DNA from: Methylococcaceae bacterium
GTDB lineage: Bacteria; Pseudomonadota; Gammaproteobacteria; Methylococcales; Methylomonadaceae
Assembly (NCBI GenBank): GCA_007280895.1
Contig: QYQN01000130.1
Coordinates: 1-44,629, forward strand
Direction of reading: 5' to 3'
Length of the DNA: 44,629 bases
Under the pieces are notes generated by a model. That model was not told the DNA's origin. It was given only the letters and a program-made list of their open reading frames with translations, and ran no database searches. Below, piece by piece: positions 2 to 28,828 of this stretch. The position numbers and the translations under genes are program-made. The stretch's first letter is position 1. Each line of letters begins with the position of its first letter.

Positions 2-452
2 AGTTTTACGCTTGAGAAAAATACTCAAACGCGTAGTTTTGGCACTGCACCCACGTTAACGGTGGGCGGTACAGGTGGCATTTCTGCCACAGCAAGTTCA
101 GGATTAGGCCCTGTTTACAGCAGTGTTACGCCCTCAGTTTGTACCGTTGCAAACGCTATGGTCACGGGGGTAAGTGCTGGCATCTGTACAATTGTCGCGG
201 AGCAAGAAATGGATGATCAGTATCAGGCTGCGCCTTCAGTCACACAAAGTTTTACGCTTGAGAAAAATACCCAAACGCATAGTTTTGGCACTGCACCCGC
301 GTTAACAGTGGGCGGTACAGGTGTTATTTCTGCCACAGCAAGTTCAGGATTAAGCCCTGTTTACAGCAGTGTTACGCTGTCAGTTTGTACCGTTGCAAAC
401 GCTATGGTCACGGGGGTAAGTGCTGGCATCTGTACAATTGTCGCGGAGCAAG
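2..452 (+). repeat. 246-bp tandem repeat encoding Ig-like domains
   Basis: Bases 2-247 are repeated from 248 with an exact period of 246 bp (82 codons). Over the first 205 bases of each copy I count nine differences, and the last 70 or so bases of that stretch are identical. The second copy diverges after 452. The low divergence, including at silent positions, points to recent duplication or gene conversion. More copies probably lie to the left of the window. Confidence 0.9.
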
Positions 453-1000
453 CAGGGGATGTGAGTTATCACGCAGCGTTTCAACGCACGCAACGCATTA
501 CGGTAATGAATGACAGTATTCTCAAGGTGATTAACGTGGGTAATGGGAGTATTAGTAGTATTGCTTCAGGAATAAATTGTGGCAGTATTTGTTCTAACGT
601 ATTTGCCAAAAAAACGTCTGTTACGTTAACAGCAACGCCAGATAGCGGCTATTTATTTTCACGTTGGCTTGGGTGTTCATCAAAGACGGCTAGCTGTACG
701 GTAAATTTACTGACTAAAATAACAACGGTAAAAGCAATATTTAATCCCATTCCCGAGTATACGCTTAGTGTTAGTGTTCTTGGCTTAGGGAAAATTAGCA
801 GTGATGTCGGAAATATTGATTGCGGCTTCAGTTGCAGTACAAGGTATAGTGCTGGGACAGAGGTAATATTAACTGCGTTTCCTGTGAGTGGCTATGCGTT
901 GACAGGGTGGGCGGGGTGTTCTTCTTCAGCGCTGCAGCGTTGTTCTGTGAAAGTAACTAAAAACACAAAGGTGAGTGCTCGCTTTAAAAAGCTTAATTGA
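2..1000 (+). CDS. Secreted repeat protein, C-terminal part (partial at left edge)
   Basis: The frame is open from base 2 with no start visible, so only the C-terminal 332 residues are present. They begin with two nearly identical 82-residue Ig-like repeats (motifs SFTLEKNTQT, SATASSGL, SVCTV, VTGVSAG, CTIVAEQ), a type common in long bacterial surface or secreted proteins. Two repeats of about 75 residues follow, with the pattern G-x-I...CG..C...T-V-x-L-T-A...GY...W-x-G-C...C-x-V...A-x-F. This matches the divergent InlB-like B-repeat domain. The protein ends in a lysine-rich tail (ARFKKLN) with no sortase or autotransporter signal. Paired cysteines in every repeat suggest disulfides and an extracytoplasmic location. 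An adhesive or surface role is inference. The repeat families are well supported; the function is unknown. Confidence 0.8.
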   Translation, partial: SFTLEKNTQTRSFGTAPTLTVGGTGGISATASSGLGPVYSSVTPSVCTVANAMVTGVSAGICTIVAEQEMDDQYQAAPSVTQSFTLEKNTQTHSFGTAPALTVGGTGVISATASSGLSPVYSSVTLSVCTVANAMVTGVSAGICTIVAEQAGDVSYHAAFQRTQRITVMNDSILKVINVGNGSISSIASGINCGSICSNVFAKKTSVTLTATPDSGYLFSRWLGCSSKTASCTVNLLTKITTVKAIFNPIPEYTLSVSVLGLGKISSDVGNIDCGFSCSTRYSAGTEVILTAFPVSGYALTGWAGCSSSALQRCSVKVTKNTKVSARFKKLN

Positions 1001-1112
1001 GAAGGTTGGGGGGATTCGGTAACGTTGCTTTAGTGGTCATGTAAACCTTACAGAATAGTTTAATCTTGTTGTTGCGCAATGAGGTTTGTTACAAGTTAAA
1101 AAAGTGGGTGAG

Positions 1113-1553
1113 TTAAACCGAGAGAACAAGCCAAATATAAAGGACACCTACGCTTAGAGAGATGTATTTTATTTTTCCTAGTAGGCTTTGTTCTTCCCAG
1201 AAGATCAGTAAACGTATTTTTTGACGAGTAAAATAGACAAGGATATTTTGATAGATTCGTTTAACTACTTTAGGCAAAAATAAATATAAGCGATATAACA
1301 CGATTGCCAACACCGTCATGAGAATATAGAAGACAATGATTTGTGTATCGTGTAAATCTGTTTCAAAAAGATGCTCTACTAAATGATCTAAGGTAGATTC
1401 TATCCATTCAAAACATATATCCAGAAATTCAATGAATAATTCTAAGAAAAGATGAAAAAATTCTATTAGTAGCTCAAATATATAACCTGGCATGATAATC
1501 ATGATGAAAATGCCAATAGCTATTAGTCCCTTGATAATTCTTTGATAAGTCAT
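1113..1553 (-). CDS. Hypothetical small membrane protein
   Basis: I do not recognise this 146-residue protein. An N-terminal hydrophobic segment (about residues 9-25) is followed by a long amphipathic stretch very rich in Phe, Leu, Ile, Glu and Asp (repeated E-F-L/E-L-F units, about 28-65). Then come a second hydrophobic helix (about 71-90), a basic region (KVVKRIYQN, TRQKIR) and a final hydrophobic helix ending in WLVLSV. The charge pattern suggests an inner-membrane protein with an acidic amphipathic loop. ATG at 1553 is used; an upstream GTG at 1562 is possible and neither has a clear ribosome binding site. It lies downstream of purL on the same strand, 115 bp away, and converges with the repeat protein. 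Confidence 0.55.
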   Translation of the reverse strand: MTYQRIIKGLIAIGIFIMIIMPGYIFELLIEFFHLFLELFIEFLDICFEWIESTLDHLVEHLFETDLHDTQIIVFYILMTVLAIVLYRLYLFLPKVVKRIYQNILVYFTRQKIRLLIFWEEQSLLGKIKYISLSVGVLYIWLVLSV

Positions 1554-1668
1554 TGAATTCACTTGTTTTAAGGTGATTTGTAAGTATTTAGCTCATGATG
1601 AAATACGGCTTCAGTATAGCCTAAACGTGAGACGTTTGTGTATTTCAGTGTTCTCAGGCTGAACGATT

Positions 1669-4600
1669 TTAATTAACCCATCGGCGTGCATTAGTAAAAA
1701 GTTGCATCCACGCGCCATGTTCCTCGGTATGCTGAGGATACCATGAGTTTTGTACCTGCCTAAAGCATCGTTCTGGGTGTGGCATCATGATGGTAAAGCG
1801 ACCATCTTGGCTTGTTAGGCCGGTAATGCCAAAGGCCGAGCCGTTTGGATTTGCAGGGAAGCGTGTGGTTTTTTCACCATAATTATCTATGTAACATAAG
1901 CTAGCAAGCTGTTCTGCTAGGATTTGTTCTGGTGCACAAGAAAATTCAGCCCGACCTTCGCCATGCGCAATCACGACAGGAAGTTTTGAGCCAGCCATGT
2001 CTTTGAAGAAAATAGAGGGCGAGGCTTGTACTTCAACCATGACTACGCGTGCTTCAAATTGTTCTGAGTGATTTTTTACAAAACGTGGCCAGTGTTCAGT
2101 GCCAGGTATAATTTCTTTTAAGCCCGCTAGCATTTGACAGCCATTGCACACACCTAACGCAAAAGTGTCGGGACGATTAAAGAAGTGCGAAAACTCAGTG
2201 CGTGCTAAGGGATTATATAAAATGGATTTTGCCCAGCCACCGCCTGCACCTAAGACGTCGCCAAAAGAAAAGCCTCCACAGGCAGCTAAGCCAATAAACG
2301 CCTTGAGACTTACTCGGCCGCTAATAATGTCGCTTAAATGGACATCAATGCAGGTAAAGCCTGCACGATCAAAGGCCGCAGCCATTTCTACATGACCATT
2401 AATGCCTTGTTCGCGCAAGATGGCTATTTTGGGACGAAGGCTTAGGTTAAGCGCAGAAATATCCTGCTCCCATTGTGTTGGTGCAAAGCTTAAGGACAGC
2501 TGCAAGCCGGGATCGTTATTATCATTAATATGCTCATATTCTTGTTTAGCACATTCAGGATTGTCGCGTAAGGCTTGCATTCGGTAACTGACTTCAGACC
2601 AGTATGTTTGAAGTTCAGCGCGATGTGCTGAATAAATAACCACACCTGCATGATGAATAGTCAGTTCTTGAGTCGTTAATAGTTGACCAATTTCAAACAC
2701 ACAATCACTTAATCCTGCGTGAATAAAGGCGTTGATAACTGCTTGGCAATGTTCTTTGCGTACTTGAATGACCGCGCCTAACTCTTCGTTGCCTAGTGCT
2801 GCTAAGGGGTCAATGCCTAGGCAATCAAGCTTAAGATTAACGCCTTGACGACCGGCAAACAGCATTTCTGCAACAGTCGCTAATAAGCCGCCATCGGAGC
2901 GATCATGATAGGCTAATAAATAGTCTTGATGATTAAGGGTTTGAAGTGTTTCAAAAAATCCACGCAGTAACGCAGGGTCGTCTAAGTCTGGGCAGGTATT
3001 ACCCAATTGCCCATACACATGTGCAAGCACTGAGCCGCCTAAGCGTTGTTTATTACCACTTAAATCAATTAATAGTAAAACACTGTCTGCCACTGCTCGT
3101 AATTGTGGCGTGAGTGTTTTGCGAATATCTAACACCGGTGCAAATGCCGTGACAAGTAAGGACAAGGGTGCGGTCATGGTGTGTTGTTGGTCGTGTTCTT
3201 GCCACAGTGTCTTCATTGATAAAGAATCTTTACCGACTGGAATGGCAAGCCCTAGGGCAGGGCACAAATCTAATCCAATTGCGCGTACCGTATCAAACAA
3301 GGCCGCATCTTCACCTTCTGTGCCAGCAGCGGCCATCCAGTTAGCAGATAATTTAATGTCACTCAGCGCATCAATGCGCGCTGCGGCAATGTTAGTAATG
3401 GCTTCTGCAATAGCCATTCTACCTGAGGCTGGGGCATTGATGAGTGCGATGGGCGAGCGTTCACCAAGCGCCATGGCTTCACCGGTGTACGCATAAAAAC
3501 CAGAGGCCGTTACGCCAACATCAGCAACGGGAATTTGCCAAGGACCGACCATTTGGTCGCGGGCAACTAAACCTGTTACTGAGCGATCACCGATATGAAT
3601 TAAAAAGCTTTTGTCTGCGACCGTTGGGAAACTCAATATTCGCTGAATGGCTTCAGTTAGGTTAATGTTGTGTAATGTTAACGGCGAAAGCTGGGGCGCG
3701 AGGCGACGAGCGTGGCGATGCATTTTAGGTGGTTTACCAAATAACACCGTCATGGGAATATCCACAGGTTGTTCATCAAGTAAGCTGTCGTTGAGCAGTA
3801 AGTGTTCGGCTTCTGTAACGTTACCAATTACGGCATATAAGCAGTGTTCGCGTTGGCAAAAACTGTCAAATAAGCTTAGCGCATCTGGATTAATAGCAAT
3901 GACATAGCGTTCTTGGGCTTCATTGCACCAAATTTGCATGGGCGTCATGCTAAGGTCAGCATTGTTAATGTTACGCAGTTCAAAACAGCCACCGCGTTTA
4001 GCGTCATGAATGATTTCTGGTACGGCATTGGATAAGCCGCCTGCACCAATATCATGAATAGAAATAATCGGGGAGTTAGCACCTAATGCATTGCACTGGT
4101 TGATAACTTCTTGGCAACGGCGTTGCATTTCAGGATTTTCGCGTTGCACTGAGGCAAAGTCCAGCGCTTCAGAGCCAAGTCCAGAGCTTTGCGAGGAGGC
4201 CGCGCCTCCGCCAAGTCCTATTAACATGGCTGGGCCGCCTAAAATGATAATTAATGCACCCGCTGGAATGGGCTCTTTTTGAATTAACATCGGCCGAATA
4301 TTGCCCATGCCGCCCGCTAACATAATGGGTTTGTGATAGCCATGGTAGGTGTTGGCATGGTTGGGGTTGGCGTATTCAAAGCTGCGAAAATAGCCGGCAA
4401 TAGTGGGACGTCCAAATTCATTGTTAAACGCTGCACCACCTAAGGGACCTTCCAGCATGATGTCTAGGGCGGAGGCAATGCGTTCAGGTTTGCCAATAGT
4501 GGTTTCCCATGCTTGGCTAAAGTCAGGAATATGTAAATGAGAGACAGAAAATCCAGTTAAGCCTGCTTTCGTTTGAGAGCCACGACCCGTTGCGCCTTCG

Positions 4601-12772: not shown

Positions 12773-14501
12773 TTTAAGATTTATATTAATTGTAGTGTTT
12801 GCCATGTTGTTGTTGTTATTGACGCAAGCTTGGGAGCAAGATTATGGCGAAAAAACTCAAGTTGCTACGGTCGCTGCAACGGATGGTGTAGACGCGGCTG
12901 GAGTTCCTGCATCACTTTCTTCTACCGAACCTTCAGCTGTACCAGCAACTCCTGGTGCTCAAGACTTACATGTTGCCGCCATTGCCCTCCCTGTTGATAA
13001 CTCAAAAGTGATCACGATTACGACTGATGTAATTCGTCTTGAGATTGATACTCATGGCGGCACAGTGCGGCAGCTGGATTTACTTACCTATCCTATTCAA
13101 CGTGATAACTCATTTGTGAATCAATTGCGTCAATGGGTTGGTTTGAGTGTGGCAGAAAAAAATCATGCACCAGTCAGATTATTTAATCCTGAGCTTGATA
13201 AGTTATTTTTAGCTCAAAATGGCTTAATCTCAGGTAAGGGGATGGCCGTTGGGCCAACGCATGAATCTTTCTTTGAGGCTAAACAAGCATCGTATCAGTT
13301 GGCGCAGGGGCAAGATTCCTTAGTCGTACCTTTAATTTGGACTGATAATAAGGGTTTAAAGGTCAATAAAACCTTCACTTTTACGCGTGGAAGTTTTGCT
13401 ATTACAGTTCAACAAGAAATTGTTAATGCCACAGGTAAGGAGTGGGTGGGTAGGCAGTACAGTCAGTTATTAAGAGTGCCTTACGAAGAAAATAAGAGTA
13501 GTTTTTTAATGGGTGGAATGCGTGCTTTTGATGGTGGTGTTATTTATACGCAAAAAGATAAATATCAAAAAATAAGTTTCAGTGATATGGAGGATAGTAA
13601 TTTGGATGTGGCTTCCCAAGCAGGATGGGCAGCGATGATTCAACATTATTTTGCTTCAGCATGGATTCCGCCAGCAGATCAAGAAAACCATTATTACACC
13701 AAGAAGTTGCCAGATGGACGTTATGTTATTGGTTCGTATTCGTCTGAAGTTGTTGTTGAAAATGCCAGTTCCGTGCAATTGGTGACCAAGTTGTTTGCAG
13801 GGCCTAAAATTCAGCCTGTAATGGAAAATATTGCGCCTGGATTAGAGCTAACAGTTGATTACAGCGTCTTAACATTTATTGGAAAGCCTATTTATTGGTT
13901 ATTAAATCAGATACATAATCTATTTGGTAACTGGGGGTTGGCAATTATTGGTGTGACTTTATGCATTAAATTGCTCTTTTTCCCTTTGTCCCAAGCAAGC
14001 TTTAAGTCAATGGCGAAAATGCGCAATATTCAGCCCTTGTTAAAAGATCTTCAAGAGCGTTATAAAGACGATAGAATGCGTTTTAATAATGAAATGATGG
14101 CTTTATACAAAAGAGAAAAAGTCAATCCACTAGGTGGCTGTTTGCCGGTGTTAGTGCAAATCCCTGTGTTTATGTGTCTTTATTGGGTGTTAAGTGAAAC
14201 AGTTGAATTTAGGCAAGCGCCCTTTTTATTCTGGATACAAGATTTATCTGTAGAAGATCCTTTTTATATTTTGCCATTAATCATGGGCGTAACGATGAAG
14301 ATTCAGCAGAGTTTAAATCCTGCGCCAATTGATCCGATTCAGGCCAAAGTGATGAAAATGTTCCCACTTGTATTTACTGTGTTCTTTTTATTTTTTCCTG
14401 CGGGTTTAGTTTTATATTGGGTTATTAACAATACTCTATCTATTCTTCAGCAGTGGTATATAACAAAAACTATCACAAAAACTATCACTAAAGCTTCATA
14501 G
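12765..14501 (+). CDS. yidC: Membrane protein insertase YidC
   Basis: This 578-residue protein inserts and folds inner-membrane proteins, alone or with SecYEG. The N-terminus [11 protein letters not shown]...QAWEQDYG matches the family's first membrane helix. A large periplasmic beta domain follows (about 60-340), then the conserved C-terminal bundle ([57 protein letters not shown]). ATG 12765 is chosen by comparison with the family and overlaps the end of yidD. The extreme C-terminus carries a short duplicated 12-base unit (14463-14486) that gives [10 protein letters not shown]; this is minor and in frame. Confidence 0.97.
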
Positions 14502-14514
14502 GTCATACAGTCAA

Positions 14515-15852
14515 TTGATTAGTTCTGATACGATAGCTGCAATTGCAACGCCTTCTGGAAATGGGGGCGTAGGTATTATTCGAATTTCTGGAAGCTTGGT
14601 TAACGATATTGCTAGGCAACTCTTAGCTAAACCGTTGCAGTCTAGGGTTGCTACTTTTGCAGATTTTTTAACAATAGATGGGGTAATCATTGATTCTGGG
14701 ATTGCTTTATACTTTCCAGCACCACATTCCTATACAGGGGAGCATGTTTTAGAGTTGCAAGGGCATGGTGGTGTTGTCGTTCTTGATATGCTGCTTACAC
14801 GAGTGCTTGATTTGGGTGCTCGTCTTGCAAGACCAGGTGAATTTACAGAGCGGGCTTTTTTAAATAATAAAATTGATTTGCTTCAGGCCGAAGCAATAGC
14901 CGATTTAATTCAGAGCCGTTCAATGCAGTCAGTGCGCTCTGCTCAGCACTCTTTGCAAGGCGTTTTTTCAGAGCAGATTAATGCTTTGGTCGAAGAGCTA
15001 ACTGAGCTAAGAGTTTATGTTGAAGCTGCAATTGATTTTGTAGATGAAGAGATTGATTTTTTAACTGAAGGGACAGTTGAAAAAAAAATGAATAGTCTGT
15101 TAGGGCGGTTACAGCAAATTCACAAAAATGCTTTTCAGGGAAAATTATTAAGAGATGGTATAAACGTTGTTTTAGCAGGCAAGCCTAATGTCGGCAAATC
15201 CAGTTTGTTAAATACCTTGGCTGGGTCTGATGCGGCCATTGTATCTGAATTCGCAGGCACCACTCGTGATGTACTGAGAGAACAGGTAAGTATTGATGGT
15301 TTGTCATTAAATATCATAGACACAGCAGGATTAAGAGACAGTTCTAATGTTATTGAGCAAGAAGGTATTCGTCGTGCTTACGGCGAAATGCAGAAAGCTG
15401 ATTTAATTATTATGCTACACGATATTTGTGAATCTGAGAATGAGCATTTGCATGTTGAGTTTTCTCAAGATATTCCTGTGATGAATGTTTTTAATAAAAT
15501 AGATTTAGTTGGGTTAATGCCTAAAATTGTAGAAAATGGGCATGGCTCATCTTGTTACCTTTCAATAAAATCGGGTGCTGGGGTAGATTTATTTATTCAT
15601 TTGTTAAAAAAATTAGTTGGATTTAATAGTGAAGAAAATCTTTTTATTGCGAGACGGCGTCATGTTGAAGCGTTAAAAGCTAGTATGTTGTGTATTGATA
15701 GTGCCTTAGCGCAAATGAATAGCTCTATTGCAGGTGAATTAATTGCCGAAGATTTGCGTCAAGCACAGCGCTGTTTGTCAGAAATTACTGGTGAAGTTAC
15801 TTCAGATGACTTGCTGGGAGATATTTTTGCAAATTTCTGTATTGGCAAATAA
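14515..15852 (+). CDS. mnmE: tRNA uridine-5-carboxymethylaminomethyl modification GTPase
   Basis: This 445-residue protein acts with MnmG to make the cmnm5 modification at wobble uridine 34. The N-terminal tetrahydrofolate-binding domain begins SDTIAAIATPSGNGGVGIIR. The G domain has G1 GKPNVGKSS (about 222), GTTRD, DTAGLRD and NKID. The helical domain ends with the invariant C-terminal FCIGK, whose cysteine is needed for the reaction. The start codon is TTG at 14515, an uncommon choice, 13 bp after the yidC stop. It closes the rpmH-rnpA-yidD-yidC-mnmE cluster. Confidence 0.97.
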   Translation: MISSDTIAAIATPSGNGGVGIIRISGSLVNDIARQLLAKPLQSRVATFADFLTIDGVIIDSGIALYFPAPHSYTGEHVLELQGHGGVVVLDMLLTRVLDLGARLARPGEFTERAFLNNKIDLLQAEAIADLIQSRSMQSVRSAQHSLQGVFSEQINALVEELTELRVYVEAAIDFVDEEIDFLTEGTVEKKMNSLLGRLQQIHKNAFQGKLLRDGINVVLAGKPNVGKSSLLNTLAGSDAAIVSEFAGTTRDVLREQVSIDGLSLNIIDTAGLRDSSNVIEQEGIRRAYGEMQKADLIIMLHDICESENEHLHVEFSQDIPVMNVFNKIDLVGLMPKIVENGHGSSCYLSIKSGAGVDLFIHLLKKLVGFNSEENLFIARRRHVEALKASMLCIDSALAQMNSSIAGELIAEDLRQAQRCLSEITGEVTSDDLLGDIFANFCIGK

Positions 15853-16009
15853 TATTTCGTCTAAATAATATTTGTGTGTTTTTTTTGTTTGAAATTAGTA
15901 TTAATCACGTGTCTAGGTAGGCTTAGTTTAAGCGTAATAACGCTTGCTTACTATTAGATATTCTGCTAAAAATGCGCGGCTTTAATTAATCTTGTCTTGG
16001 AGTGAATGG

Positions 16010-16450
16010 ATGACAGAAGGTTCTAAAACAAAAACTGGGGCATCGCCTTTTACGTTTACGCCATATATTGAAGTTGACGGCGAAGAGTATATGAATGAGG
16101 CTCAGCTCAAACATTTTGAAAATATACTTAGAAATTGGAAAGCTGAGTTAATGCATGAGGTTGATCGTACGGTACACCACATGCAAACAGATGCGGCAAA
16201 TTTTCCTGATCCAAATGATAGAGCCACTCAGGAATCTGAATTTAGTTTGGAATTAAGGACACGCGATCGTGAACGTCGATTAATTAAAAAAATTGATGAA
16301 GCATTAAAAGAAATAGAATCGGGTGATTATGGCTTTTGTGAGTCTTGTGGTATCGAGATTGGTATTCGACGTCTTGAAGCAAGACCTACTGCAACACTAT
16401 GTATCGATTGTAAGACTTTAGATGAAATTCGTGAAAAACAAATGGGCTAG
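16010..16450 (+). CDS. dksA: DksA-type RNA polymerase-binding transcription factor
   Basis: The product is 146 residues. A coiled-coil region (about 35-100, rich in Glu, Arg and Lys, including [13 protein letters not shown] and [12 protein letters not shown]) precedes a four-cysteine zinc finger: CESC, then 17 residues, then CIDC. This is the DksA/TraR layout, and the length is close to E. coli DksA (151). DksA enters the RNA polymerase secondary channel and works with ppGpp. The ATG at 16010 is preferred over an upstream TTG at 15992 because GGAG (15999-16002) sits 7 bp before it. The dksA-gluQ pairing is conserved in gammaproteobacteria and supports true DksA. Confidence 0.93.
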
Positions 16451-16471
16451 CTGGAATAACAGCTAAATGTT

Positions 16472-17356
16472 GTGGCGGAAAAGCAAAATGTAATCGGTAG
16501 ATTTGCACCTTCTCCAACAGGAACATTGCATCTAGGATCATTGTATACCGCTTTAGCTAGTTACTTAGATGTTAGGAGCAAGCAAGGGCAGTGGTTGCTT
16601 CGTATTGATGATATTGATTGTAGTCGAAATGTAGACGGTGCAAGTTCGGCTATTTTGTATGCGTTAGACGCGTTAGGTTTGCATTGGGATGCTGATGTGG
16701 TTTATCAAAGTCAGCATCATGAGTATTATGAAGCTGCATTTATGCAGTTGAGCAACAATAACATGGTTTATCGTTGTACGTGTAGTCGAAAAAATATCGA
16801 TGCGTTAATTTATCCGGGCAGTTGTAGAGAAAAAGTTGTGTTAGATGTTATGTCTTATGCCTGGCGACTAAAAACAGATCAACGCATAATTAGTTTTTAT
16901 GATGAAGGTCAGGGACTTATTCATCATGCTCTTGATACTCAGCACGGTGATTTTATTATTAAACGAAAAGATCGGTTGTTTGCGTATCAATTGGCAGTAG
17001 TGGTTGATGATTATCTACAAGGCGTTACTCATGTAATGCGTGGTTGTGATTTGATTGATTCAACGCCTAAACAGATTTATTTACAATCACTTTTGAATCT
17101 AGCTCAACCTTGCTATCATCATCTTCCAATTCTTGTCGATTCTTTCGGTGCTAAGTTAAGCAAACAAACACGTGCACCCGTTGTCGATTTAACTAATCCA
17201 GAATGGGTGCTTTTTAGGTTGTTGGGGTTATTGAGTCAAAACCCTCCCGCTGTCTTGGCTAAGGCTTCTGTTTCAGAAATACTGCAATGGGCGATAAGTA
17301 ATTGGCAGCCACATGTTTTAATAGGTTTACAGGCAATCAAGCTAAATAAATGTTAG
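16472..17356 (+). CDS. gluQ: Glutamyl-Q tRNA(Asp) synthetase
   Basis: The product is 294 residues. It resembles the catalytic half of glutamyl-tRNA synthetase and lacks an anticodon-binding domain, as GluQ-RS does. It attaches glutamate to queuosine 34 of tRNA-Asp. Seen motifs are the HIGH-type PSPTGTLHLGSL at the N-terminus, a cysteine cluster (CTCS...C) that binds zinc, and KLSKQ as the KMSKS counterpart. The start is GTG at 16472. It lies 21 bp after dksA and its end overlaps the convergent apaH gene by 15 bp. Confidence 0.95.
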   Translation: MAEKQNVIGRFAPSPTGTLHLGSLYTALASYLDVRSKQGQWLLRIDDIDCSRNVDGASSAILYALDALGLHWDADVVYQSQHHEYYEAAFMQLSNNNMVYRCTCSRKNIDALIYPGSCREKVVLDVMSYAWRLKTDQRIISFYDEGQGLIHHALDTQHGDFIIKRKDRLFAYQLAVVVDDYLQGVTHVMRGCDLIDSTPKQIYLQSLLNLAQPCYHHLPILVDSFGAKLSKQTRAPVVDLTNPEWVLFRLLGLLSQNPPAVLAKASVSEILQWAISNWQPHVLIGLQAIKLNKC

Positions 17357-24168: not shown

Positions 24169-27090
24169 TTAGGTTGCAGCAGGTAATGCAGCTTTAGTTA
24201 AGTCAATCGTAACTTCTGCAATTTCTTTGTTTTCATTCAGTCGATCGATCTCTTCAAAGGGTATTTTTGCTTCGGTAAACTCATGAAAAATAGCTTTCCA
24301 GACTTCATCTCTAAAAACTTTATGTTTTTTGAATTCATAAATACTAAACGAAATAATATATTCAGCCATCACACCGCAGTCAAGATACACATAGCCATTA
24401 AAATATTGTTCGGGTGTTTTAATATCATGAATGCCTTTGACACTTGCCAGTGCAGTTTTGAGATGACTCAAAATTAATTCTGGCTCATATTTTTGTGGCA
24501 TGTTTAATTTAAGCCCTATTTTTGAAAAATCTTCAATGTAATTAACAATTTCAGCGGCAGCAACTAAGCTATTTGGGATGCTGATGATGTTATTGTCTAA
24601 ATCTTTAACTTTCAAACTACGCCATGTCATATCAATGACCTGAACGCGGTCAAAGGTTTTTATTTTAATGTAATCGCCAATAGAAAAGGGGCGCTCAAGG
24701 TTAACCACAATGCCAGAAAAGATATTGGCAATGTTTCCTTGCACGGCTAAACCTAAAATCATTGCGAATAAACCACTTGTTGCTAATAAGCTGGATAACG
24801 GCTTATTAAATACGAACGCCACGATACAGAAGAAAAATAAAATATAAACGACGCCGCTGGTGAAGTTTTTAATAACCCCTGGTATTTTCCGTTGAGACTT
24901 TTTCTCCATCGGAGGCCATAGAAACAGGTTAAGTGCTAATACAATTAACGTAGCAGGCACAATCCACCACAGTGCATCGTAAACCATAACAATTAAATCA
25001 ATACTATGGTTAGATAAGTTTTCATCAATGGCAATTTCAATGGTTAAATTGCCGATGGCTAATAACGACACGTACCAGAAAACTACCCGCATTACCCAAG
25101 AAGATGCTAGCCAGAAGAAAATAATATCTTCTTTGTACGTCAAATCTTTTTCGCTACTAGCATTAGCATGTTTTTTCCAATTGTATTTATTATCAATTAA
25201 ACGCGCAGCAATGCTGCCTAATATGCCAAAAATACCTATGTAGACAAAATACACGGGGTTAACGTAATCATTGAGGTTAAAGCGATCTTCAGCGAGCAAA
25301 ACTTCATAATCTATTTTAGAGAAATCAGGGCCAATGGCACCATAACCTACATACATTGGCTCACCAAAGGTAGGGATGATCGTAATAGATTGATAAAATT
25401 GTGCGGCAAGAATTTTCCAGTCTGGAAGTGATTGTAAAATATGATCGGCATTGACTTTATCTTTTAAGCTAGTATTGCTATTAAGTGCCATGCCTAAGTC
25501 ATCAATAACATAAATAACATTATTTTTATTGAAATTTTTATGACGGAAAGAAAGACCAGCGACATGACTGCCATGGCGGAATTTTTCGGTAGAAAAATCG
25601 ATATTAAAATCATGTTTTATGCGATACCGTTTAAACATAACGCCATCTTTTTGATAGGAAAGAACGGGTTTATCTAAATTTAATTCTGTGCCAGCGTTTA
25701 TAAACATCAGATCTGCTGGATCAAAGTTACCGCGATACCGAAACCAAATGGAGAAGTCTAATTCAGCTGTGTTTTTGGTTAGATCTAGTTTGGATACATC
25801 ATGTAGTTCAATACCGGTATAAATAACGTTAGTTTTATACATAAAACGGTCAATCACATACAGCATCTTGCCAGATTTTAATTCTTCTATGTAATTAACC
25901 GAGCTATTCGGTTTGATAGGTTGTAATTGCGTGGGTGCAGCAATGATAGTTTGACCATCGTAAACGCCTATTTGTGTGGTTTTTTGTGCTTCACGATTTT
26001 TATCAAACCAGTTGTCACCTGTTGCCCCATGAAGTGCTACATCGGGGGTGTTTAAGGTATACAAGTATTTTAAAATAATTTCTTTTTCGATATTTCCAGC
26101 AGTTAAGGATTGATTTAAGATTTCTTTTAAAATTAATTTAATTGCATCATGGCCATAGGCAGAAATCCAGTCTGGGTATTCACCAAAGCGTTGTAAGTAG
26201 CTATTTTTAAAGCGTTGTTCCTCTGAACCTGACGTGTCAAATAAGAGCGGCGCAGAAAAAATGATGTCATTAGTATAGCGAGCACTATCCGCCTTGTTGT
26301 GACTAATATCAGCAATTGTGCGGTTAAAGGCATGCGTTGCAACGACATCGGTGCCAATGATTTTATTTTTAATATTAGCATCTCGTGCTTTGACAACAAA
26401 TTTTGCAGAATCTGCAGCGTTACCCACAAAGAAAATAGAACCTAAGTCTTGCTTGTCTTTTATGTTGGCAATAACCTGTTCAATTGAATTGGTTTGGTCA
26501 TTAGTGTCGTAAGAAAATTCGTAATGAATTTTTGTGCCAAAACGCTCATAAACATCGCTGAACTGTTTTGCCATATTAATTCCTTTTTGGGTGTTGTCAT
26601 GAATGATGGTAATAATCATTAATCCCAACACATTACGAGAATAATTAGCAGTAAATTGAGCTTGTTTTGTTTCGTTAAATACTGTTGAAAAGAAATGCGA
26701 AGAATCTTTAAAGGGTGCATTGTCGATTGACGCAAGATTTAAAAAAGGTGCTTTTTCTTTTTTTATGCTTTCTGTAACTGCTTTGGTAGTATTAACATCA
26801 GTTAAGCTAATAAAGCCAATGACATCGTTGCTTTTAACAAAATCATCAATATTTTTAAGCAGCTGGGGGTCAGATGCTGAAAAGTTTTGCACTTTTATAT
26901 TTTTTGGATTAATGAATGAACTAATACCATTGTTAATAGACTCTTGGTCATGAGAATTGGAGGTGATGATACCGACATGAACATTATGTTTACTTTCTTT
27001 AAACCAAATGTTGTAAACCAAAAATGAAGTGATTGCACTTAGCACAATAATGCTGGCAATAATGATAAAAAGCTTTCTTCTTTCAGACAT
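24169..27090 (-). CDS. MscS-family channel fused to a periplasmic binding protein domain
   Basis: The product is 973 residues. An N-terminal membrane anchor (about 5-27) is followed by a type I periplasmic-binding-protein fold like LivK (about 35-385; VGIITSNS start, FFVGNAADSAKFV, AYGHDAIKLILKEIL). An extra extracytoplasmic beta-rich domain (about 410-590; TGIELHDVSKLDL, FSIWFRYRG) comes next; its pattern recalls ligand-gated ion channel binding domains, but that match is tentative. Hydrophobic segments lie near 611-632, 656-690, 698-725 and 741-763. An MscS pore helix and beta domain follow (ATSGLFAMILGLAVQGN, NLERPFSIGDYIKI, IPNSLV). The layout suggests a channel gated or tuned by an external ligand. 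ATG 27090 is preferred over ATG 27102 because GAGAG precedes it. It lies downstream of an ABC exporter. Confidence 0.85.
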   Translation of the reverse strand: MSERRKLFIIIASIIVLSAITSFLVYNIWFKESKHNVHVGIITSNSHDQESINNGISSFINPKNIKVQNFSASDPQLLKNIDDFVKSNDVIGFISLTDVNTTKAVTESIKKEKAPFLNLASIDNAPFKDSSHFFSTVFNETKQAQFTANYSRNVLGLMIITIIHDNTQKGINMAKQFSDVYERFGTKIHYEFSYDTNDQTNSIEQVIANIKDKQDLGSIFFVGNAADSAKFVVKARDANIKNKIIGTDVVATHAFNRTIADISHNKADSARYTNDIIFSAPLLFDTSGSEEQRFKNSYLQRFGEYPDWISAYGHDAIKLILKEILNQSLTAGNIEKEIILKYLYTLNTPDVALHGATGDNWFDKNREAQKTTQIGVYDGQTIIAAPTQLQPIKPNSSVNYIEELKSGKMLYVIDRFMYKTNVIYTGIELHDVSKLDLTKNTAELDFSIWFRYRGNFDPADLMFINAGTELNLDKPVLSYQKDGVMFKRYRIKHDFNIDFSTEKFRHGSHVAGLSFRHKNFNKNNVIYVIDDLGMALNSNTSLKDKVNADHILQSLPDWKILAAQFYQSITIIPTFGEPMYVGYGAIGPDFSKIDYEVLLAEDRFNLNDYVNPVYFVYIGIFGILGSIAARLIDNKYNWKKHANASSEKDLTYKEDIIFFWLASSWVMRVVFWYVSLLAIGNLTIEIAIDENLSNHSIDLIVMVYDALWWIVPATLIVLALNLFLWPPMEKKSQRKIPGVIKNFTSGVVYILFFFCIVAFVFNKPLSSLLATSGLFAMILGLAVQGNIANIFSGIVVNLERPFSIGDYIKIKTFDRVQVIDMTWRSLKVKDLDNNIISIPNSLVAAAEIVNYIEDFSKIGLKLNMPQKYEPELILSHLKTALASVKGIHDIKTPEQYFNGYVYLDCGVMAEYIISFSIYEFKKHKVFRDEVWKAIFHEFTEAKIPFEEIDRLNENKEIAEVTIDLTKAALPAAT

Positions 27091-27130
27091 GTTGGCTCTC
27101 ATTTATGACATGTTGGATAAAAACACAGCA

Positions 27131-27217: not shown

Positions 27218-28828
27218 TCAATTAACAATTACACCGGATTCTAATTTAATGATTTTATCAGCCACTGAAAAATAGCGATCATCATGACTGACGGCAATAA
27301 TCGTTTTGCCTTGTTGTTTTAAGTCTTTTAACAGCACTTCATAGAAATATTTTCTGAATTCAGGATCTTGATCAGCCGCCCATTCATCGAACACATAAAT
27401 CTGTTTGTTTTCCATCATTGCTGCGATGTAAGCCAAGCGCTTTTTTTGTCCTGTTGATAAATCTGTATTAGTAAAGCGATTATTTTTGAAACCAGTTTTT
27501 TTCTCTAGTTTCATCATACTAAGCAGCTCAGTCATGCGTTTTTGATCAATGTCATCCACACCATACAGGGATTCAAATAAGTGAAAATCTGCAAAAATAC
27601 TTGAATACATCTCACGATAATGACAGTAATCAGATTCTTCCAAGGGTTGGCTGTTAAAATAGAGGGAGCCAGACGCAGGGAAATATAACCCTGTAATTAA
27701 TTTTACTAAGGTAGATTTACCGCTGCCATTACCCCCCACAATAAATACAGTTTCACCTTGATTGATTTTTAAATTAATGGGGCCAATGCCAAATGTATTG
27801 CTGTTGCTAGCGTCGTGGTAACAAAAATTAACCTGTTCGAGTTCAAGCGAAGTAAATTCTGGAATTTCAATAGTGGTGTTGCGTAACGGTTTGCTGGCAA
27901 GATCAATTTCTGCTTCAAGGCTATAGAGATTTTCAACCGCGACATTGGCGCGTCCAAAAATAGGTAATGCACCTACCACAGTACTTAATGGACCAAATAA
28001 AAACAGTACCGCAACGGTAATCCCTACAACTTCGTTAGCATTAATGAAGGTAAGAATAGGTAGTGCAAAAATAATGACGGCACAGACAATAAAGAAAGCT
28101 GTTTGTGCAAACATTAAATCAATAACAAAATTAAGACCTGTGGCGACTTTAATATCTTTTGCTTCTTCTGAAATGGTTTTTATATGATCAAACAACTCAT
28201 TATTTTTTTTATGATTGATTTTGATTTCTTTAAAGCCCATTAAAATACTATCAATGCCAGTAAAAAAGTCAGCTTCTTTTGTTGAGGCTTCATGAAGTTG
28301 TTTATTGATGTATCGAGAGTTATATAAATACATAAATATGGATAAAACAATGACAATCCCTGTAACAATAAACCCAGGAATTGATAGCCAGGCGATATAA
28401 AGTAAGCAAATAACAACAACAATCATTTGTTGGCAGGCATTGATAAGGATAATCGCAGATTCTGAAATAAGGCTGGCGTCTTGAGTAATGCGCGTAAAAA
28501 TAGCGGCGTGCCCGGTGGTTTCAATGAACGTCAACTCAGTTTGGCGCAATTTGTTAGTGATACGAATGCGGACGCGATCAATTGCATTTTCAGCAATGAC
28601 GATGGCTTGTTTTAACGAGTATTGTCGGGTGTAAATAAGCAGTAGAAGATCAGCAAAAAACAGAAAAAAATTGTGCATTTGTAAGTCTTCATTTTTACCA
28701 ACAGATGCAGCGGCATCATTCATTATCATTAATAGATAACCATTGGCTAAGCCAGAAACTAATGCAGTAAAAATGATTTGGGATTTAGGTGGTCGGCTTT
28801 CTTTGCTAAAAAAATCTAATAATTGCAT
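27218..28828 (-). CDS. SyrD/PvdE-type cyclic peptide ABC exporter
   Basis: This 536-residue half-transporter has an N-terminal membrane domain with about six hydrophobic segments (18-36, 52-66, 124-148, 151-170, 232-265, 268-290) and a C-terminal ATPase. The ATPase has Walker A GGNGSGKST (365-373), signature LSTGQKKR (457-464), Walker B with the distinctive YVFDEWAADQDP (478-489) and the H-loop VSHDD (His514). The DEWAADQDP sequence and the overall size are typical of the cyclic peptide/siderophore exporter group (SyrD, PvdE, YojI). No peptide synthetase or precursor gene is nearby, so the substrate is unknown. It is upstream of and codirectional with the MscS-fusion gene, 127 bp apart. Confidence 0.88.
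   Translation of the reverse strand: MQLLDFFSKESRPPKSQIIFTALVSGLANGYLLMIMNDAAASVGKNEDLQMHNFFLFFADLLLLIYTRQYSLKQAIVIAENAIDRVRIRITNKLRQTELTFIETTGHAAIFTRITQDASLISESAIILINACQQMIVVVICLLYIAWLSIPGFIVTGIVIVLSIFMYLYNSRYINKQLHEASTKEADFFTGIDSILMGFKEIKINHKKNNELFDHIKTISEEAKDIKVATGLNFVIDLMFAQTAFFIVCAVIIFALPILTFINANEVVGITVAVLFLFGPLSTVVGALPIFGRANVAVENLYSLEAEIDLASKPLRNTTIEIPEFTSLELEQVNFCYHDASNSNTFGIGPINLKINQGETVFIVGGNGSGKSTLVKLITGLYFPASGSLYFNSQPLEESDYCHYREMYSSIFADFHLFESLYGVDDIDQKRMTELLSMMKLEKKTGFKNNRFTNTDLSTGQKKRLAYIAAMMENKQIYVFDEWAADQDPEFRKYFYEVLLKDLKQQGKTIIAVSHDDRYFSVADKIIKLESGVIVN

Follow-up and report, generated by a model that had tools for sequence, protein, structure and literature searches.

A putative ligand-gated channel of Methylococcaceae that joins a binding protein domain and a Cys-loop receptor-type domain to an MscS-type pore

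What kind of protein is encoded by a reading frame of nearly a thousand codons in a Methylococcaceae contig, in which a periplasmic binding domain and an MscS-type pore appear to stand in one chain, and could such a chain work as a ligand-gated channel? The window referred to below is the whole analyzed stretch of 44,629 nucleotides. The hybrid channel gene lies on its minus strand (24169..27102, stop codon included), as do all further window features given here, and is defined by its open reading frame, its relatives and dN/dS. The first-pass annotation recognized an existing reading frame, but the strand is minus and the protein has 977 amino acids counted from the first ATG; the length of 973 residues given there corresponds to a start at methionine codon 5. 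The plus-strand reading of the interval contains many stops. The chain consists, in order, of an N-terminal helix, a LivJ/LivK-type periplasmic binding protein (PBP) domain, a central beta domain and an MscS-type pore. The helix (aa 7–34; 27001..27084) is a probable membrane anchor, with its secondary structure taken from AlphaFold2 and its membrane location predicted from the sequence. In the full-length AlphaFold2 model (pLDDT 82.6, pTM 0.66), this helix is followed by five helices in the channel part, and by this helix count the PBP and the central domain would be periplasmic and the beta domain of the pore cytoplasmic.

Full-length relatives with 96%, 69%, and 64% identity were found in three further genomes of the genus; the TAA counted in the match of the 69% relative lies just ahead of that gene's start codon. 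Among 41 genomes searched, 4 of the 20 from the same genus (G000, G001, G003, and G004) contain the full-length protein, and the window's own genome (G000; 2.86 Mb, 160 contigs) yielded, besides a single full-length match, two other matches of MscS type. A 95%-identical copy of the gene is present at locus L004, which is probably from the same genome as G004. Between this one pair, dN/dS is 0.044 overall, with 0.058 for the PBP domain, 0.024 for the channel part, and the lowest value, 0.016, for the central domain. The comparison indicates purifying selection on the whole hybrid chain. A chance reading frame is ruled out by this value and by the conservation in relatives, and an assembly fusion by the recurrence of this chain in separate genomes as well as on complete plasmids of Azospirillum.

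The PBP type I domain (aa 39–397; 25912..26988) was assigned by Pfam, fold and profile comparisons. Pfam places Peripla_BP_6 at aa 85–351 (2.8e-16), and a weak PDB sequence match to a leucine-binding protein (0.041) was also obtained. In the full-length model, aa 39–395 superpose on LivJ (4gnr) with a Z-score of 36.6 and an rmsd of 2.2 over 330 aligned residues, and a profile of seven PBP domains taken from chains of both pore types matches the 4gnr protein at 7.9e-45. Thus, the two-lobe fold of LivJ/LivK proteins, which the first-pass annotation had proposed and whose absence it had named as grounds against its reading, is present by both Pfam and fold. The best 50 fold matches of the full-length model are binding proteins or receptors with such domains and are uninformative on the MscS part. 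The hybrid has Ser99-Leu100 where its MscS-pore relatives have Gly (26/30) and His (24/30), and the pocket stretch at this position, which we take to have a role in ligand binding, is altered in the window's clade. The amino-acid-like ligand proposed in the first-pass annotation is accordingly only a candidate.

The central domain (aa 413–609; 25276..25866), assigned by profiles, fold and tree, has no Pfam or NCBIfam match within aa 400–610. Its AlphaFold2 model, computed for the domain alone on the profile A1 of 13 MscS-linked domains (pLDDT 86.5, pTM 0.82), matches the pentameric ligand-gated ion channel (pLGIC) ELIC5 in VIA-align with a Z-score of 15.2 and an rmsd of 2.8 over 162 residues. 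All of the best 50 matches listed are pLGICs (ELIC, sTeLIC, GABA-A, and nicotinic receptors; Z 14.6–15.2). Foldseek relates the same model to an acetylcholine-binding protein (1.0e-9), and its best 50 matches listed are, going by titles, acetylcholine-binding proteins and nicotinic receptor domains. In sequence space, A1 matches L045 (1e-16) and L050 (1e-14). The former, a plain pLGIC of 368 aa, matches a GLIC-GABA-A chimera at 5.4e-16 and GLIC at 4e-11 and weaker within residues 69–344. In whole genomes, A1 also finds three open frames of 367–371 aa, known by length only (3e-12 to 4e-10). Searched by sequence against the PDB, A1 alone finds no pLGIC and has two chance matches, both to METTL5 (0.2 and 0.23), so the sequence link between head and pLGICs runs via intermediates. 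When five pLGIC-pore rows are added to A1, 101 PDB matches result, the best 60 of which are all GLIC or GLIC chimeras (best 4.5e-4), a weak result because the added rows are themselves pLGICs.

Given these fold matches and the profile link to plain pLGICs, the central domain is, as judged from profiles and a predicted structure, a homologue of the pLGIC (Cys-loop receptor) extracellular domain (ECD). It would be very surprising if it were instead a convergent beta sandwich that merely resembles this ECD, in a chain that is an unrelated arrangement. The missing Pfam match and the failure of A1 alone to reach a pLGIC in the PDB speak for convergence, but the A1 matches to plain pLGICs and the uniform VIA-align result nearly refute it, as does the finding that related PBP domains precede both pore types. 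An unrelated beta domain is ruled out by the same profile and VIA-align matches. The likeness to pLGIC binding domains that the first-pass annotation had noted is therefore firmer than claimed there, since the fold match is joined by the same head on a pLGIC pore in relatives.

The channel part begins with four predicted helices (aa 616–764; 24811..25257), which together with the pore helix TM3 (aa 769–803; 24694..24798) form a five-helix part resembling that of YnaI in the AlphaFold2 model, with the YnaI match starting at aa 718. TM3 was identified by PDB sequence match, the model and kept motifs. It is followed by the MscS beta domain (MS_channel_2nd by Pfam and AlphaFold2; aa 811–855; 24538..24672) and a C-terminal alpha/beta part seen in the AlphaFold2 model (aa 860–944; 24271..24525). 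The Pfam match to MS_channel_2nd spans aa 791–855 (4.6e-14; 52.7 bits against a cut-off of 20.2), the best PDB sequence match is YnaI (aa 718–855; 2.3e-13), and MscS follows at aa 736–857 (4e-10). The TM3 and beta-domain motifs are kept, and a model of the pLGIC transmembrane (TM) part does not match the hybrid's channel part. The complete MscS pore and beta domain of the first-pass annotation are thus borne out, including the pore-helix similarity whose lack would have counted against them. The Escherichia coli channels YnaI, MscS, MscK, and MscM have the pore helix and beta domain in common with the hybrid, and are not known to carry a binding-protein or Cys-loop-type head.

Within the MscS superfamily, the pore groups with channels that reportedly combine MscS with a cyclic-nucleotide domain, the bCNG channels (Caldwell 2010 and Malcolm 2012, as cited in PMC4560390 and PMC3386975). 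The pore tree contains 58 rows, is unrooted, and omits 15 loci and rows under 110 aa. In this tree, 29 family pores, L083, and the channels L002 and L008 lie on one branch (99/99) opposite 26 other MscS proteins; these 26, with L002 and L008, are the window protein's best matches in related genomes and an uneven sample. L002, in the window's genome, is MscS-cNMP by Pfam, and L008 is its relative. Inside the branch, 28 of the family pores form a group of their own (99/92), whereas L043 and L083 are joined, with weak support (86/72), to L002 and L008. The hybrid pore hence appears to belong with MscS-cNMP (bCNG-type) channels, and the earlier premise that MscS channels respond to tension only was too strong, as MscS proteins of the bCNG type exist and the hybrid pore groups with one. 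Pfam finds no C-terminal cNMP_binding domain in the hybrid protein, whereas six relatives carry one (L035, L038, L039, L041, L043, and L047) and the bCNG-like L002 lacks both the pLGIC ECD and the PBP. In the window's genome, a reading frame that by eye resembles a methyl-accepting protein (L002:21-2721) directly precedes the MscS-cNMP gene.

The hybrid is not a lone oddity. Of 369 genomes from the class, 12 contain a match to aa 399–609 searched alone, and A1 matches in 43 of 398 genomes of the phylum, where it finds both pore types: among 30 loci from the best-ranked genomes, the pore is of the MscS type in 19 and of the pLGIC type in 9, and the chain is truncated ahead of it in 2. By Pfam, L036, L040, L004, and L007 consist of PBP, central domain and MscS, and L035, L038, L039, L041, and L047 have an additional cNMP-binding domain; L043 has the central domain, MscS and cNMP parts without a PBP. 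A further variant without PBP (L083:651-2936, minus strand, genome G001; 761 aa) unites a pLGIC-type ECD and an MscS pore with a C-terminal globin (PF00042, 8.2e-16) and is possibly tuned by oxygen or NO. In L042, L051, L075, and L080, the PBP and central domain precede a pLGIC-type membrane part, with Neur_chan_memb matches below the curated cut-off (L051 at 6.2e-6). For the TM part of L037, a PDB search yields TM domains of GABA-A receptors, with 1.9e-7 for the chimera 6cdu and 2.9e-4 for a native chain. L074–L082 match the TM model at 2e-17 to 2e-8; the model was seeded with L037, L042, L051, L045, and L050, which match by construction. Genome G072 contains both a PBP-pLGIC (L051) and two PBP-ECD-MscS chains (L039 and L046), and in genome G511 a single stretch, L098, encodes two hybrid channels (at 55-3111 and 13858-17268). 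A plasmid search gave 353 records with some match; query coverage reaches 80% or more in nine of them, which are all from Azospirillum and 31.8–33.3% identical. The relative in Azospirillum sp. B510 is annotated as an ABC transporter substrate-binding protein and has PBP and MscS domains by Pfam, and the match on a plasmid of A. brasilense Sp 7 lies inside a 1106-aa reading frame.

The ECD tree comprises 46 rows, some of them cut at one end, and is unrooted; the tree and the pro-loop count below omit 16 duplicates or cut chains (L001, L005, L034, L035, L039, L044, L048, L049, L052, L064, L073, L084, L085, L086, L088, and L090). Thirty PBP-ECD-MscS rows and L043, together 31 MscS-pore rows, are set apart by one branch (99/97), and the PBP-pLGICs L074 and L051 (together at 97/89) join them at 84/84. 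L083 stands outside this main MscS branch on a very long branch of its own, and a single origin of all 32 MscS-pore ECDs is not rejected (p-AU 0.18). The comparison indicates that the head is kin to PBP-pLGICs.

In pLGICs, the pro-loop is a contact site with the pore. All 14 pLGIC-pore ECDs retain both its Pro and its Asp, whereas none of the 32 MscS-pore ECDs has the two together; among the latter, Pro alone (7/32) or Asp alone (4/32) occurs and Gly takes the place of Asp in 23 of 32. The Pro-x-Asp place of the hybrid aligns with Arg509-His-Gly511 (25570..25578). Its ECD thus has the pLGIC fold, with Arg509 and Gly511 in place of the pair and no four-helix pLGIC pore behind it, and for these two reasons we file the protein by its pore under the MscS superfamily and not under pLGICs. 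The name "pro-loop" for pLGIC receptors is found in the title of PMC4795631. Since the ECD rows are related, the absence of the pair counts as near one event, and it would fit a head that was re-fitted to a different pore. In the simplest history, a single pore swap, a PBP-pLGIC would have lost its pore and taken that of a bCNG-like channel, and the cNMP domain would later have gone missing in the window's clade; as the trees are unrooted, the direction of the swap is only inferred. A separate second fusion is possible for L083 and perhaps L043, since L083 falls outside the ECD branch and both group weakly with MscS-cNMP channels in the pore tree.

We consider it fairly probable that the protein is a natural receptor-channel hybrid, in which an ancestral PBP-pLGIC had its pore replaced by one of the bCNG branch of MscS, and that it is ligand-gated or ligand-tuned. 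A small ligand in the periplasm would be captured by the PBP, whose lobes would close and so move the Cys-loop-type domain; this domain would then act on the MscS helices at their outer ends and thereby open or tune the TM3 pore. With less confidence, channel flux may regulate or report on neighbouring export, for which the partner would be type I secretion in many relatives and a cyclic-peptide-type exporter at the window. Heads of pLGICs are pentameric and MscS pores heptameric, and this symmetry mismatch of five against seven is the main puzzle.

It is unlikely, if not negligibly so, that the protein is a tension-gated MscS channel whose large periplasmic head would do no more than adjust its threshold or inactivation or anchor it, with no ligand gating. 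Such a channel would agree with the MscS-like pore and beta domain, and large periplasmic parts are also a feature of MscK and MscM, which match the hybrid less strongly; yet the head consists of two receptor modules whose order is the same ahead of pLGIC-type pores, the tree places the pore with MscS-cNMP proteins rather than with the 26 other MscS proteins, and the ECD has the lowest dN/dS of the three parts.

Comparison with known systems separates the two halves of this architecture. The bacterial PBP-I-pLGIC is a predicted chemoreceptor in the part of the account by Tasneem et al. (2005, PMC549065) that deals with it; as described there, it has, like the hybrid, a binding-protein type I domain ahead of a Cys-loop-type ligand-binding domain, but it keeps the four-TM pLGIC pore, whereas the hybrid has an MscS pore and no pro-loop pair. 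GLIC, ELIC, and DeCLIC have the same ECD fold (ELIC for the central domain, GLIC for L045), and DeCLIC also has extra N-terminal domains according to part of its description; unlike the hybrid, all three have a four-helix pLGIC pore and no MscS part. MscS subfamilies with added ligand-binding domains are already known in general terms, as stated in a part of PMC4560390. For bCNG channels, the MscS pore is of the hybrid's own branch. Among the papers listed by full-text literature searches, judged by titles and abstract openings and with most subscription papers and preprints outside their scope, none describes a pLGIC-MscS fusion, and the word "mechanosensitive" is absent from the text of Jaiteh 2016 (PMC4795631). 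The PBP-pLGIC architecture has been known since 2005, and for a pLGIC head on an MscS pore no account was found in these searches. The family thus places one receptor head on two unrelated pores of differing known symmetry, even within genome G072, and represents a natural experiment on the coupling of Cys-loop heads to pores, in which all chains with an MscS pore lack the pro-loop pair. The symmetry mismatch is testable, the hybrid is a candidate for chemical control of MscS pores, and, owing to the plasmid relative in A. brasilense Sp 7, it is open to experiment in a soil bacterium that can be cultured.

The gene neighbourhood repeatedly contains export genes. In the window, an ABC exporter of the cyclic-peptide type (27218..28828; TIGR01194, 381 bits against a cut-off of 286) lies 115 bp upstream of the hybrid gene on the same strand, at about the same distance in L086, and is a possible operon partner. 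Clustering of neighbours at relatives likewise brought out exporter genes, which at L096 are ABC, HlyD, and OEP (TolC) by Pfam. By tblastn, type I secretion genes occur at 13 of 24 MscS-pore loci (all three at 11, two of three at 2) and at 0 of 5 PBP-pLGIC loci; the query genes came from L084, L096, and L113, which match by construction, and the scanned stretches measure 9 to 27 kb, with L089 and L098 reaching little past the channel gene on one side. Among 13 loci from the phylum's other classes, 2 of them Azospirillum loci, 12 have these genes, as does 1 of 11 from the window's class, so the type I link says little on the window gene. In L100, the type I genes lie on the opposite strand. In Azospirillum sp. 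B510, there is a 4-bp overlap between the hybrid gene and the ABC gene, and the hybrid gene has a back-to-back neighbour encoding a 2351-aa cadherin-repeat protein. Further giant reading frames adjoin relatives in L100 (2225 aa, cadherin and FG-GAP repeats), L099 (1723 aa, no Pfam match), and L101 (10504-18000, minus strand), where a 2499-aa PATR-repeat protein is encoded directly upstream of a PBP-ECD-MscS gene in a stretch without type I genes.

These neighbours, above all the ABC, HlyD, and TolC genes and the tight arrangement in B510, would suit a protein that is not a channel and acts as a sensor or assembly scaffold for the adjoining exporter. We regard this as improbable, since the TM3 and beta-domain motifs are kept and 11 of 24 loci, 10 of them from the window's class, have fewer than two type I genes in the stretch. 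On the preferred reading of a ligand-gated or ligand-tuned channel, a bolder extension may be entertained, which we put forward tentatively and would not bet on: a new class of ligand-gated channels, in which PBP-fed Cys-loop heads would drive an MscS pore in one shared symmetry, with either a heptameric head or a pentameric pore. In many relatives, such channels might serve as an environmental switch that controls the type I export of giant surface proteins, and other members might be double-gated, with an additional input from a cyclic-nucleotide or globin domain at the inner face.

Other neighbours were seen at fewer loci. Directly after the PBP-pLGIC genes, 2 of 5 loci have reading frames with MCP-signal matches below the curated cut-off (L109:9394-10947 and L110:10217-11932), which would fit a chemotaxis role of PBP-pLGICs and agrees with the chemoreceptor prediction of Tasneem et al. 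(2005). Genes for an SPFH/Band 7 protein, an anchored PBP and a DUF697 protein are not beside the hybrid gene in the window and had no match in 24 other stretches. In two same-genus genomes, SPFH/Band 7, second PBP and DUF697 genes follow the channel gene (by Pfam in L085 only); coordinates of the trio are L084:1475-4599, L085:11494-14491, and L112:6934-9740. In the window's genome, the trio is located on another contig, at least 1 kb from a row of reading frames that by eye includes an NRPS.
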